Source: Methanothrix thermoacetophila PT (GTDB lineage: Archaea > Halobacteriota > Methanosarcinia > Methanotrichales > Methanotrichaceae). Taken from it: a DNA stretch of 64,000 nt. The position numbers and the translations under genes were made by a program. Below the pieces are notes generated by a model, which did not search any database, had not been told where the DNA came from, and worked only from the letters and a program-made list of their open reading frames with translations. Positions 21,184-54,635 of the stretch are shown here, piece by piece; position 1 is the first letter of the stretch; every line of letters starts with the position of its first letter. The stretch is taken from positions 868,001 to 932,000 of the forward strand of contig NC_008553.1 of NCBI RefSeq assembly GCF_000014945.1. Direction: 5' to 3'.

Positions 21184-21630
21184 CTACAGATCTATCCTGA
21201 CCCCAAAGAGGCGTTCGAACCTGTCGAGCTTGGCCCTGGCTCTGTAGAGGTTCTGGCGGACGTATGGCCTTCCCTCCTGAAATGCGATCATATCTCTTAT
21301 CTCAGCGGGTGTAAAGACCACCTCCAGGCGCTCCCGCGGCACCTCTGAAACCCTGAGAGAGGCTTTTGCAGGTGCATGCCCCTCAGCTTCGTCCACAACA
21401 AGCGGCTGGTCCTCTATCCATGACCAGTCCTCGCCGTAAACCATGAGCAATGCCCTGGAGCATCCAAGGCATCTGGCTGCGACCATCCATCTACCCGCGT
21501 GCTTGTAGTATCCGAGGCTCAGGAGATCTCCATCGCAGGCTGTGCAGATGCCCACGCGGTTCTGCTCTCTTGATACCGGAGATACTTTCGTGTCATCCAG
21601 CACGAGATCCGGGTCTCTGAAGAGAATCAA
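21184..21630 (-). CDS. Conserved zinc-ribbon-like protein in the dap operon
   Basis: 148 residues from a TTG at 21630 that overlaps the dapB stop (TTGA), so it is very likely the last gene of the S17e-dapA-dapB operon. It carries two Cys pairs, GICTACDGD (near residue 30) and ARCLGCSRA (near 55), likely one zinc ribbon, then a C-terminal helical part (FTPAEIRDMIAFQEGRPYV). I do not recognise a named family. Position suggests, but does not show, a role linked to lysine synthesis or translation. Longer starts are open but would read antisense into dapB. Confidence 0.6.
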   Translation of the reverse strand: MILFRDPDLVLDDTKVSPVSREQNRVGICTACDGDLLSLGYYKHAGRWMVAARCLGCSRALLMVYGEDWSWIEDQPLVVDEAEGHAPAKASLRVSEVPRERLEVVFTPAEIRDMIAFQEGRPYVRQNLYRARAKLDRFERLFGVRIDL

Positions 21631-22400
21631 CTCGAAGCCAACACCTCTTCCATGCTGTGGATCCCCGGAGGGGCCTTGACAACCCACCTTGCAGCTCTCA
21701 GAGCGCCTCTGGCGAAGGCGGACCTGCTATGCGCCTGGTGCTTGATCTCTATCCTCTCCCCAGGACCGGCAAAGAGCACGGTGTGATCCCCAACTATATC
21801 GCCAGCTCTGACCGCATGCACCCCTATCTCTCTTCCTCTTTCACACATTCCCTCTCTGCCGTGGCGGACATCCTCTATCCCGAGAGAGCGGCTGAGTATC
21901 TCAACAGTTCTCATCGCGGTCCCGCTGGGGGCGTCCTTCTTTTTGCGGTGGTGTGCCTCTATGACCTCAACATCATAATCGCTAAGAGATCTGGCAGCCA
22001 TCTCCACGAGCTTCCAGAAGACGTTGACTCCAAGGCTGAAGTTGGGTGAGATCACAGCAGCGATGCCCGCGCTTTTTATCATCTCCTCTATAATCGAGAG
22101 CTGTTCCTCAGAGAACCCAGTCGTGCCGACAACAAGAGCCACTCCTGTATCAGCAGCTGCATGGATGTTTTCCAGTGCTGCAGATGGCACTGTGAAGTCG
22201 ATCAGCACATCAGGGCGCGATTCTCTGAGAACCCTCTGCACATCCCTCGCATCTGATACGCATACATCTCCAAGAACCCGGTCACCTATACCGATGATGT
22301 CGATCGCAGCCACAAGCTTCAGATCAGGGGAACTCCTGATCTCATCGATTATCAGAGACCCCATCCTGCCCTTTGCCCCAGTCAAGGCAACATCTGTCAT
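21627..22400 (-). CDS. dapB: 4-hydroxy-tetrahydrodipicolinate reductase
   Basis: 257 residues, full length. N-terminal Rossmann motif VALTGAKGRMGSLI (residues 4-17), then the family motifs DFTVPSA, VVGTTGF, SPNFSLGVNVFWKL and the catalytic/substrate segment VEAHHRKKKDAPSGTAM, written here as EVIEAHHRKKKDAPSGTA. It reduces the DapA product with NAD(P)H in the diaminopimelate route to lysine. Its ATG overlaps the dapA stop (ATGA, 22397-22400), so the two are coupled. Confidence 0.95.
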   Translation of the reverse strand: MTDVALTGAKGRMGSLIIDEIRSSPDLKLVAAIDIIGIGDRVLGDVCVSDARDVQRVLRESRPDVLIDFTVPSAALENIHAAADTGVALVVGTTGFSEEQLSIIEEMIKSAGIAAVISPNFSLGVNVFWKLVEMAARSLSDYDVEVIEAHHRKKKDAPSGTAMRTVEILSRSLGIEDVRHGREGMCERGREIGVHAVRAGDIVGDHTVLFAGPGERIEIKHQAHSRSAFARGALRAARWVVKAPPGIHSMEEVLASS

Positions 22401-49156: not shown

Positions 49157-50028
49157 CAGAGAATCTCCCTCTCAAGACGCTCGAGCGCCGCAATTCTCGC
49201 CTCGATGGGGGGATGTGTTGAGAGGAGGTTCGCTATGGCGCCCGTGGGAATTATGAAGAATGCGTTCATCCCCTCCACCTTCCTGAGATCCTCCCTCGGG
49301 ATCCTGGCCATGGTACCGCTGATCTTCATGAGTGCAGATACGAGAGCCGAGGGCCTTCCTGTTATGATGGCCGATCCCCTGTCCGCCGAGAACTCCCTGT
49401 ACCTTGAGAGAGTCCTTATGAGTATGAAGCTCACGATCCACACAATCAGGGAGACGAGCCAAACAGCGAAGAGGTTGCCTGACTCCCGGTCGCGCCTGTC
49501 GCCCAGGAAGAATATGTTCTGGACTATCACAGATGCCACTGTCGAGAGGAAGCTCGCGATCGTCATCACCGCCACATCTCTGTTTTTGATGTGTGACAGC
49601 TCGTGGGCGAGAACCGCCTCCAGCTCGCTTTTATCAAGTCTTCTGAGAAGACCTGTGGTGACTGCGACCACGGAGCTTGACTGGCTCCGGCCGGTGGCAA
49701 ATGCATTGGGTATGTCTGTGCGAACGATCGCTATCCTGGGCTTTGGAAGACCTGCTATTGCGCAGAGCCTCCCCACGAGCTCGTGCAGCTCAGGAGCCTC
49801 GCTCTCAGAGACGATCCGCGCGCCGACACTTGCGAGGGCGATCTTGTCCGAGTAGAAGTACTGTATGAAGAGAAACAAGCCCATGATCAGGACAACTCCC
49901 TGTATGCCCACCCCCATTGCCATTATGACGTTTATGAATATCAGGTATACAGCTGCAAGCAAGAACATCGTCAGAAGCATTCTCGCCTGCAGGCCCCGAT
50001 CTGCGCTCCATCGTACCATGACTCTCAC
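49156..50028 (-). CDS. htpX: HtpX-like M48 membrane protease
   Basis: 290 residues. Four hydrophobic stretches (~20-35, 43-58, 155-175, 185-205) anchor it in the membrane; the zinc motif HELSH (His142, Glu143, His146) lies in AVLAHELSHIKNRDV and the third ligand region follows in REFSADRGSAIITG. M48 HtpX proteases cleave damaged membrane proteins. It shares an operon with pspAB, next to pspA-pspAA, so it probably acts in the same envelope-stress response. A reverse-strand TATA element lies at 50053-50061. The start may be ATG 50028 or 50019. Confidence 0.93.
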   Translation of the reverse strand: MRVMVRWSADRGLQARMLLTMFLLAAVYLIFINVIMAMGVGIQGVVLIMGLFLFIQYFYSDKIALASVGARIVSESEAPELHELVGRLCAIAGLPKPRIAIVRTDIPNAFATGRSQSSSVVAVTTGLLRRLDKSELEAVLAHELSHIKNRDVAVMTIASFLSTVASVIVQNIFFLGDRRDRESGNLFAVWLVSLIVWIVSFILIRTLSRYREFSADRGSAIITGRPSALVSALMKISGTMARIPREDLRKVEGMNAFFIIPTGAIANLLSTHPPIEARIAALERLEREIL

Positions 50029-50052
50029 CTCAATGCAGGATATGGTTCATGA

Positions 50053-50061
50053 GATATAAAG
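50053..50061 (-). promoter_or_regulatory. Probable TATA box of htpX-pspAB
   Basis: On the reverse strand CTTTATATC is 25-33 bases before the htpX ATG at 50028. Confidence 0.45.
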
Positions 50062-50159
50062 CGATTTGTTGCTAGATGCCATATCCGGGACGAAATCGAT
50101 AAGATCGCTCGGATAAGCTGAAAATTTAGCATGAATTTATAAAAATGAAATATATCATA

Positions 50160-51384
50160 AAGATGTCTCACTTTTTGAGCCGCGGTTCTAATTTAAAGAT
50201 TTTTAATCATATAATAATATTAATAAATTTTTAAGATATTATGTAATTACTTAAAATAAATATTATATATAGCTTTATCTTTTATATGTTAAATTTTAAA
50301 TTTTTGCATTTTTTTGTATAACTCATTAATTATATCTAGTTAAAAAGCTACTATTTTAAATATATCAAAAATTAATATTTAATTTTATTGATTATATAAA
50401 AACGTGTGACCGCCGATTTAAGCAAAATTAGATGTTTTAGTTCAAATTATGTTTATAATTAAACCAATACTATAATTAGTTTTATCACCGATGAGATGAA
50501 TGCATGGATGGTATGATTTATTTTTATAGTTCATGTATTAAATTAATTTTGGTGGCGCTTTATTCCTATATGTTATGGGTTTCAGGTTATGCAATTTTAT
50601 GAAATCCTCTTCAGAGCAGTTTTTTATGTAATGAATGAGGGGTATGCGCGCAAAAGGAGGCAAATTCACATAACATTTGGAATAAATGAGCTGACAGAAT
50701 ATATGATTTTCAAAGCACATCTGGATCTCAATACCATATGATATGCGAATAAAATCCGGCATAGCGGTGGCATCGATACAAAACCTTAAATGACGATCAT
50801 GCGTGAAGTTGCAAGAGATAAAAATCGATCGCTCTTATCCCCCGCTGGCTATGTGAAAATGTCGGCGCTCTTATACATTTGATGACCTGCCCGAAGAGCA
50901 GTGGTCATGCTATGTCTTCCTGGCGAATGAATGAGTGCTATCACCAACCACATCGCATGCTCACAAGTTGCCATGCGCATGAGGAGAAACCGATATCTGC
51001 AGATGGATGCACATGGATCACATCACAGCTCCGATAGACTCCATCGAATTGCTCACTACATTCGTCCGCAGTGAGGAACAGATAGACGTTTGATTTGCAT
51101 CCATCAAGACCACGTGACTTGCCAGACAAAGATAACACAAGCGAATGTATATAAAAATTATACAAAATTAGTACAGTAGATAAATTGCTTTTAAAAAATA
51201 AACTTTTTTTCGTGTCAATAAATTTATTTTAGTGATTTGTAAATAAATAATATATTTTTATGTATTTAAATTTGTATAAAACCAAGTGAGATATAAAATA
51301 TCTTCATATAGAAAACCTATTAGGCTGGATGTTCTGGTGTTGGAATTAAGATAAGCTCACGTCGCTCAAAAAGTGAGACTTCTT
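50160..51384. mobile_element. AT-rich gene-poor island bounded by 21-bp inverted repeats
   Basis: The left end AAGATGTCTCACTTTTTGAG (50160-) and the right end (51364-51384) are inverted copies matching at 20 of 21 positions; the perfect core GTCTCACTTTTTGAGC is at 50165-50180 and 51364-51379. Between them ~1.2 kb is far richer in A+T than the rest of the window, especially 50190-50470 and 51150-51320. No convincing gene lies inside: short frames at 50538-50762 and 50941-51165 have no recognisable features. A repeat copy lies at 50868-50973. It may be a non-autonomous or decayed transposon, or a silenced insertion. No obvious target duplication was seen. Confidence 0.5.
50868..50973 (+). repeat. 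Direct repeat, copy 1 (partner at 54413-54528)
   Basis: About 105 bp closely matching 54413-54528. Shared blocks include CATTTGATGAC, GAGCAGTGGTCATG, and a long identical stretch beginning GAGTGCTATCACCAACCACA and ending CATCGCATGC, then ACAAGTTGCCA. The copies are in the same orientation and 3.5 kb apart. Confidence 0.75.
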
Positions 51385-51887
51385 GCGGGTTGCGGTATCC
51401 CGCTATATATTTGGATCTGCCACCCTGCAACACCTGTGTCTGCGATCTCAGAGATCCGAATTGTATCAAGCTTTTCGAGATCGCTGCAGTCTTCACTCAG
51501 AAGTCGTCTTAAAGTATCTGATGCTATCGGTACACCACCTTCCGTAATGACAACTCCTGGGCATTCCAGATCTGCACAATCGAGCCTCTGGGCCAGATTT
51601 CGAAGCGAGGCTCATGTGGTTGAACTGTCCGAGAGGCGAGTTCTGACAGCCTCAACCAGTTGCATTCGGCTTTGCCCCTTTCTACAATGTTAACGGCGCC
51701 GAATCACAGGAGGAGCCTTGAGGCGATTTTGAGACGACCGCTCATATATTGCAAGCTGTGCTGGAAAAGGCATTATTTGCCAGGGGCAACATCGCAGAAC
51801 CAGTGGTTTTACATGGCTAGAGACGAACCAAAAAGATCATCCCATTTGGGAGAAAGGAATATTAAAGATGCGTCCTCACTCCGCATC
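51385..51887. other. Leader region upstream of the homoaconitase-type gene
   Basis: About 500 bp without a supported gene. An open frame continues upstream of the first enzyme's start but its sequence is not conserved-looking. Positions 51545-51615 resemble 21037-21105. A purine-rich AGAAAGGAATATTAAAGATG near 51850 may be leader or an upstream start context. Confidence 0.35.
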
Positions 51888-52373
51888 ATGATCAGGGGCA
51901 GGGCATGGGTCTTTGGGGATGATGTTGATACAGATGTAATAATTCCAGGGAAATACCTCAGGACAAAGGATCTGCGCGAGCTGGCGGAGCACGTCATGGA
52001 GGGTCTGGATCCGTCGTTCTCATCAAAGGTCCAGCCAGGGGATGTTATAGTAGCAGGCAAGAACTTCGGGTGCGGCTCTTCCAGGGAGCAGGCCCCGCTT
52101 GCCCTGAAGCTCGCAGGAATATCATGCATCGTCGCCCGATCCTTCGCCAGGATATTTTACAGGAACGCCATAAACATCGGTCTCCCTCTCATTGAGGCAG
52201 ATGTCATGTGCGAGCCGGGGGAGGTCGTGGAGGTAGATCTCTCCCGGGGGAGGGTCATCGCAGGCGGAAGGGAATATACCGGCAGAAAACTTCCGGACTT
52301 CCTGATGGAGATCCTGAACGATGGAGGGCTCGTGGCCCACAGAAGAAAGCAAAGGGAGCGCGGTCTGATTTGA
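51888..52373 (+). CDS. hacB: Homoaconitase/isopropylmalate isomerase small subunit (homoaconitase type favoured)
   Basis: 161 residues from ATG 51888: [20 protein letters not shown] then LRTKD, followed by the swivelling-domain motifs [19 protein letters not shown] and [20 protein letters not shown]. The family includes leucine-pathway isopropylmalate isomerase and methanogen homoaconitase, which makes the 2-oxosuberate side chain of coenzyme B. The loop YLRT is, as I recall from work on the Methanocaldococcus proteins, the homoaconitase form (isopropylmalate isomerases have a different pair after YL). The large subunit is not in the window. The gene overlaps the next one by TTGA. An upstream ATG at 51813 is possible. 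Confidence 0.8.
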
Positions 52374-54168: not shown

Positions 54169-54635
54169 GGAGCAGATTGATCTTCTACAACATTTATCTG
54201 TCATGTTCACTATCATGACCCAGACTGTGCAATCTTTTCAAGATCGAGACGCTCCTTTTTCTACATGGACTCATCGGTCGAGTCGCAGGAGCGGCAATTT
54301 CTGACGTGCCCAACCAGCAGCAACCGACTTCTTCTCTTTCCGCCAGGTTACTGATCTGTCAAATCACAGAGACGAACCATGTAAAAATTCACACAAATTG
54401 AATTAATTTTTCGCTTTTATCCATTTGATGACTTGCCCGAAGGAGCAGTGGTCATGTTATGCGTTTGTGTCGAATGAACGAGTGCTATCACCAACCACAT
54501 CGCATGCCCTACAACCTACAAGTTGCCACACACATATGTGCGTTAATTTTTACCCTTATCGGAAATACTTATATCTAATAAGTATCTTAAATACTTATCT
54601 AGAGTACGTATCAAAGGTACTGGTGGGTGGTGTGG
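54169..54635. other. Intergenic region with a repeat copy
   Basis: 467 bp. The second copy of the ~105-bp direct repeat is at 54413-54528. Around 54560-54600 an AT-rich tract repeats AAGTATCTTAAATACTTAT-like blocks (TACTTATATCTAATAAGTA is palindromic), a plausible promoter/operator for the protease gene. No gene is supported. Confidence 0.4.
54413..54528 (+). repeat. Direct repeat, copy 2 (partner at 50868-50973)
   Basis: Same sequence as copy 1 with small insertions (for example ACAACCTACAAGTTGCC against TCACAAGTTGCC). It has no coding potential. Together the copies enclose the three-gene operon. Confidence 0.75.

Follow-up and report, generated by a model that had tools for sequence, protein, structure and literature searches.

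A conserved, normally single-copy non-coding element proposed to mark the replication-terminus region of Methanosarcinia chromosomes

The dif/cer and Ter sites are read by host proteins and are common to the chromosome terminus and to plasmids. In enterobacteria, the Tus/Ter and matS/MatP systems rely on many short, dispersed sites, Ter being present on plasmids as well, and the parS sites known from bacteria are grouped close to the origin. Among archaea, dif is terminus-linked in Thermococcales (XerA/dif, Cortez et al. 2010; PMC2958812). According to the general view, archaeal chromosomes nevertheless have no defined termination sites (PMC7776575), which counts against the interpretation favored here: an AT-rich island of Methanothrix thermoacetophila is best explained, with a probability of roughly 0.55, as this species' version of an ancient chromosomal element, normally present in one copy, by which the region of the replication terminus is marked in Methanosarcinia, i.e., a terminus maintenance site analogous to dif, ter or matS. 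No description of such an element was found in the open-licence PMC papers, the literature covered, and a search of a phage collection returned no match to it. The data suggest a site, not described before, at which copied chromosomes are completed or separated.

The window, that is, the whole 64,000-nucleotide stretch of DNA analyzed, corresponds to positions 868001–932000 of a single 1,879,471-bp contig and has a GC content of 53.6%. A sequence-only reading had described in it an island framed by 21-bp inverted repeats, with the composition turning AT-rich exactly at the repeats and no convincing gene inside. The repeats are present as two 21-bp arms (50160–50180 and 51364–51384), 95% complementary, separated by 1183 nt and sharing an exact 16-bp core, GTCTCACTTTTTGAGC. 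In dinucleotide shuffles of the region 50000–51500, an exact inverted repeat of at least 16 bp arises in 2 of 500 cases, and a G+C content as high in 0 of 500. The compositional drop is also evident, from about 53% GC to 10–20% in 50180–50420 and 51135–51290, but on the left it starts approximately 40 bp ahead of the arm, and the island is not uniformly AT-rich: the stretch 50600–51130 has 33–49% GC, so that two AT wings enclose a core. The absence of a convincing gene is borne out, since the longest ORF inside the island does not exceed 74 aa and every reading frame is disrupted by indels between sister genomes, which rules out a small-protein gene. The neighbor previously named an aks-like operon is instead a leuD-like gene with its start near 51888. 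The features of the island, in window coordinates, are as follows.

50160–50180, + strand: left outer inverted-repeat arm, conserved core CTCTCACTTT; kept in 6/6 genus genomes and 10/20 other family genomes
50181–50550, no strand: left AT wing, 10% GC in its lowest 150–200 bp; all genomes examined have a wing, its sequence being loosely conserved
50558–50754, + strand: core of the element, matched by models R1, R2 and R3, one main match per genome
50562–50582, + strand: palindrome site 1, degenerate in M. thermoacetophila (alignments A3/A4)
50610–50705, + strand: middle module, also on plasmids and virus-like contigs
50664–50683, + strand: palindrome site 2, ATTCACATAACATTTGGAAT, the best conserved of the three; in the aligned genomes, its right arm lacks one base (alignments)
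50731–50751, − strand: palindrome site 3, ATACCATATGATATGCGAATA (alignments)
50866–50985, + strand: inserted MITE-like dispersed repeat of about 120 bp with CGCTC...GAGCG ends, not ancestral; about 40 genome copies, missing in sister islands
51135–51290, no strand: right AT wing with AGTACAA...TTGTACT-like blocks conserved in the genus (composition and alignment)
51364–51384, − strand: right outer inverted-repeat arm, AAAGTGAGA; kept in 6/6 genus genomes and 8/18 other family genomes

Terminal inverted repeats, a length of 1.2 kb and the lack of a gene had suggested a MITE-like element or a decayed insertion, and AT-richness with such termini is indeed shared with MITEs and insertion sequences. 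In contrast to these, the element is single copy, conserved in position and devoid of a transposase. A whole-genome search for the terminus GTCTCACTTTTTGAGC, allowing up to 2 mismatches, returned no copies beyond the two arms at the island locus, whereas MITEs and insertion sequences are recognized by several copies with shared termini. Inspection by eye revealed no direct repeat that could represent a target-site duplication; the flanks beyond the arms rather prolong the inverted repeat. The comparison with sister genomes yielded no empty site, the island being kept upstream of htpX in 5/5 genus relatives. In the six-genome alignment, the left end carries CTCACTTT and the right end AAAGTGAG in 6/6, both AT wings and blocks of the core are conserved, and the genus islands share a plan in which terminal repeats (CTCTCACTTT...AAAGTGAGAG) enclose a core with its two AT wings. 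Because the genome contains no further copies of the termini and the position is conserved genus-wide, and in kind, near single copy, across the class, mobility is contradicted and the probability of an insertion element is negligible; the evidence instead supports the direction of a structural or chromatin region, which the same reading had also considered. The island does contain a true MITE-like repeat, at 50866–50985, and its absence from the sister islands indicates that it was inserted later, into the M. thermoacetophila copy. This dispersed repeat of about 120–125 bp looks like a MITE; it recurs in the window at 54412–54528, its approximately 40 genome copies are 73–91% identical, many copies are present in three sister genomes and few in two others, and several lie near cdc6-1 (1554825–1556096).

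The distribution of the core was followed with a sequence-only model (R1), a model built from 28 sequences (R2) and a class-wide model (R3). In the order, R1 matches 40/50 genomes, each with a single main match, R2 matches 139/192 genomes and 29/36 genera of the class, and R3 matches 116 of the 391 sampled genomes, from 36 of the 132 sampled genera, of the phylum. The core normally gives one main match per genome, full-length in most. Outside the class, strong near-full-length matches occur (E 1e-12 to 1e-18), and the weak ones may represent false or partial modules. On one Methanosarcina-like chromosome, three weak matches to the middle module fall within 1.7 kb (G194:C2:1521596–1523311), distant from the main element. 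The neighboring genes, named by reading their sequences, vary by clade: htpX in Methanothrix, surE-like genes in another clade and a gene resembling a chloride channel in a third, with oxidoreductase or deacetylase-like genes at this place in yet other clades. Consequently, the element is autonomous and tied to no particular gene.

Its anatomy is preserved across relatives. In every genome examined, a core of approximately 195 bp lies between AT wings, whose lowest 150-bp stretch has 5–24% GC on the left and 7–28% on the right, against a background of 37–61%. In family genomes outside the genus, CTCACTTT is found at −300 to −550 from the core in 10/20 and AAAGTGAG at +450 to +700 in 8/18, with 0 in control windows for both; outside the family, these outer octamers are not clearly conserved (2/11 and 1/11, respectively). 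The core carries three copies of a palindrome of about 21 bp, with the consensus ATTCNYATAGTNTATRNGAAT, and their spacing is kept across the class (about 103 bp between sites 1 and 2, 66–78 bp between sites 2 and 3).

With regard to chromosomal position, ORB repeats (CCACTGGAAATAAAGGGG) adjoin cdc6-1 in 11/11 family genomes tested, for which reason this gene is taken to mark the canonical origin; the cdc6-1 locus near 1552.5 kb is the probable oriC of M. thermoacetophila. Among 35 genomes of one or two contigs, 20 of them with lengths rounded to 0.1 Mb, the median distance from cdc6-1 to the element is 0.96 of the half-chromosome, and in 27 the element lies within 10% of the cdc6-1 antipode (at least 0.90). 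Of the 12 genus medians, 8 reach the same threshold (binomial p about 3e-6 against a uniform distribution). Single-copy non-coding conservation together with a near-antipodal position in most species suggests a terminus site. What counts against it is that M. thermoacetophila itself, at 0.67, and five other genomes (G016 0.67, G052 0.56, G171 0.39, G173 0.67, G019 0.12) depart from the antipode, and that GC skew gives no clear terminus signal. The cumulative skew sampled in M. thermoacetophila reaches a broad minimum at 0.77–1.04 Mb, within which the island falls; no consistent terminus signal emerges from the G021 and G016 samples or from the flank skew at 30 loci, and skew was therefore left out as evidence. 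An antipodal position outside the class is not supported, the fractions in five contiguous genomes being about 0.05–0.83 (lengths rounded).

In Methanosarcinaceae, a conserved c0-c2-c1 gene block is located to the right of the core in 8 genomes and to the left in 2, which implies that an inversion end falls near the element. The Zn-ribbon protein family c0 adjoins the element in 10 genomes of this family, and a homologue with about 32% identity is encoded in M. thermoacetophila at 21184–21687 (− strand) of the window, 29 kb from the island; as a candidate partner or binder, it is a lead only. At the Methanosarcinaceae loci L340–L349, the Zn-ribbon gene near the element is adjoined by genes for a DUF2551 protein and a winged-helix protein, both small, conserved and DNA-binding-like.

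The middle module also occurs on extrachromosomal DNA. The circular plasmid pH6Ac of M. harundinacea (NC_016637, 11,991 bp) carries it at 437–536, within a 1.46-kb stretch lacking annotated genes; the gene that follows encodes a protein of 1124 aa, which matches prim-pol weakly. The module is likewise present on further small contigs (L332, L333, L338, L339) that encode prim-pol, MCM or terminase. On the plasmids and the virus-like contig, only this middle module of approximately 80 bp is found, without AT wings. Such sharing would be expected, by analogy, if a host protein for chromosome maintenance reads the site.

Several other readings were weighed against these data. Strong non-coding conservation might mean that the island encodes a conserved non-coding RNA or regulates neighboring genes over a long range, and RNAalifold does allow a stem of approximately 17 bp between sites 2 and 3 in six close, genus-level sequences. 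This stem is lost once 28 sequences are aligned (0 pairs in the consensus), which speaks against the conserved, covarying fold of a structured RNA, and the palindromes are therefore best read as putative binding sites on DNA. Taking into account also that an Rfam search of the island gave no match, that the neighbors change between clades, and that the AT-rich outer wings and outer repeats are unexpected for an RNA gene, an RNA or regulatory role is very unlikely. AT wings beside putative binding sites would suit an origin of replication as well as a terminus. Like an archaeal oriC with ORB repeats, the element has inverted putative binding sites around AT-rich DNA; in contrast to it, ORB repeats are present in 0/34 elements, the cdc6/orc1 gene by which an archaeal oriC is recognized was not found beside it, and the canonical origin lies elsewhere, at cdc6-1. 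This rules it out as the canonical, primary origin. A second origin, antipodal to the first and with the AT wings as unwinding elements, would account for the repeated putative sites adjoining these wings and for the module preceding replication genes on plasmids, and two origins would be best balanced if antipodal. However, the same lack of ORB repeats (against 11/11 at the family's cdc6-1 loci) and of an adjacent cdc6, together with the absence of an origin-type skew switch beside the element (mean R−L +0.007, s.e. 0.011), renders this improbable.

A centromere-like partition site, i.e., a parS/CEN analogue with a segregation protein as putative binder, would be consistent with one element per chromosome, copies on plasmids, and an array of putative binding sites with AT-rich DNA. 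The arrangement resembles the point centromeres of budding yeast (CDEI-CDEII-CDEIII), in which a short conserved boundary motif, a very AT-rich stretch and a conserved palindromic element are likewise combined, although this is an analogy of layout only, with no homology and no kinetochore in archaea. The antipodal position in most genomes, whereas bacterial parS lies near the origin, speaks against such a site, and an unsystematic look noticed no parA/segAB-like gene beside the element; this role is accordingly considered a poor candidate. Closer to the favored explanation, and a sub-case of it, is a site-specific recombination site, namely the dif of the class, resolving chromosome and plasmid dimers: the middle palindrome would be the crossover site of a putative recombinase, with the flanking palindromes as accessory sites. 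As in Xer/dif of bacteria and Thermococcales, the element is intergenic, away from the enzyme gene, and single copy in the terminus region (in 27/35 contiguous genomes, with M. thermoacetophila at 0.67); conserved AT-rich flanks and inverted repeats are present, the Thermococcales dif being also terminus-linked with such flanks (PMC2958812). The module is common to plasmids, as with cer/dif, whose host recombinases act on plasmids too; the middle palindrome is asymmetric in that one base is missing from its right arm in the aligned genomes, and the inversion end near the element in Methanosarcinaceae would fit. The dimensions, in contrast, are different: a core of approximately 200 bp with three 9-3-9 palindromes, within an element of about 900–1200 bp including the AT wings, far exceeds one 28-bp site of 11-6-11 geometry. 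This geometry gives a best mean arm identity of 0.46, compared with 0.57–0.60 for 9-3-9 or 8-3-8. Furthermore, the PF00589 search of M. thermoacetophila found no cognate full-length XerA, the sole tyrosine-recombinase match being a 164-aa ORF with a partial domain (G000:C1:1059590–1059985); the PF00589 sets vary among the other genomes. The unmatched geometry and the confinement of PF00589 to this ORF weaken a strict XerA/dif assignment, which is possible yet rather doubtful. With Tus/Ter and matS/MatP, the element shares the terminus location, putative sites for a dedicated host protein and, as for Ter, the occurrence on plasmids, but it is one compound element instead of many dispersed sites.

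What the comparisons demonstrate is the anatomy of the element, its conservation and near-single-copy state, its lack of ties to particular neighbors, its antipodal placement in most contiguous genomes and the presence of its middle module on plasmids. For the terminus maintenance site, we infer the following mode of action. A putative host-encoded dimeric DNA-binding protein would probably occupy the three regularly spaced palindromes, and a putative second factor probably the outer inverted repeats. By virtue of its two very AT-rich wings, the DNA there might remain flexible, easy to melt or clear of ordinary chromatin. Once assembled, the complex could act at the meeting point of the forks to resolve, decatenate, arrest or segregate the sister chromosomes.

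Tentatively, and at slightly less than even odds, it may be proposed that Methanosarcinia, and perhaps much of Halobacteriota, use a sequence-defined terminus site, formed by three palindromes between AT wings, together with a new host protein of non-Xer type, in terminating, resolving or segregating their chromosomes, the middle module being used by plasmids and viruses. With the element, questions of replication termination, dimer resolution and chromosome segregation in most euryarchaea become directly testable, as a conserved, normally single-copy cis element near the oriC antipode exists in the genetically tractable Methanosarcina and can serve as bait for the missing host protein. If the proposal is true, the element would also provide a sequence marker of the terminus for genomes without usable GC skew.
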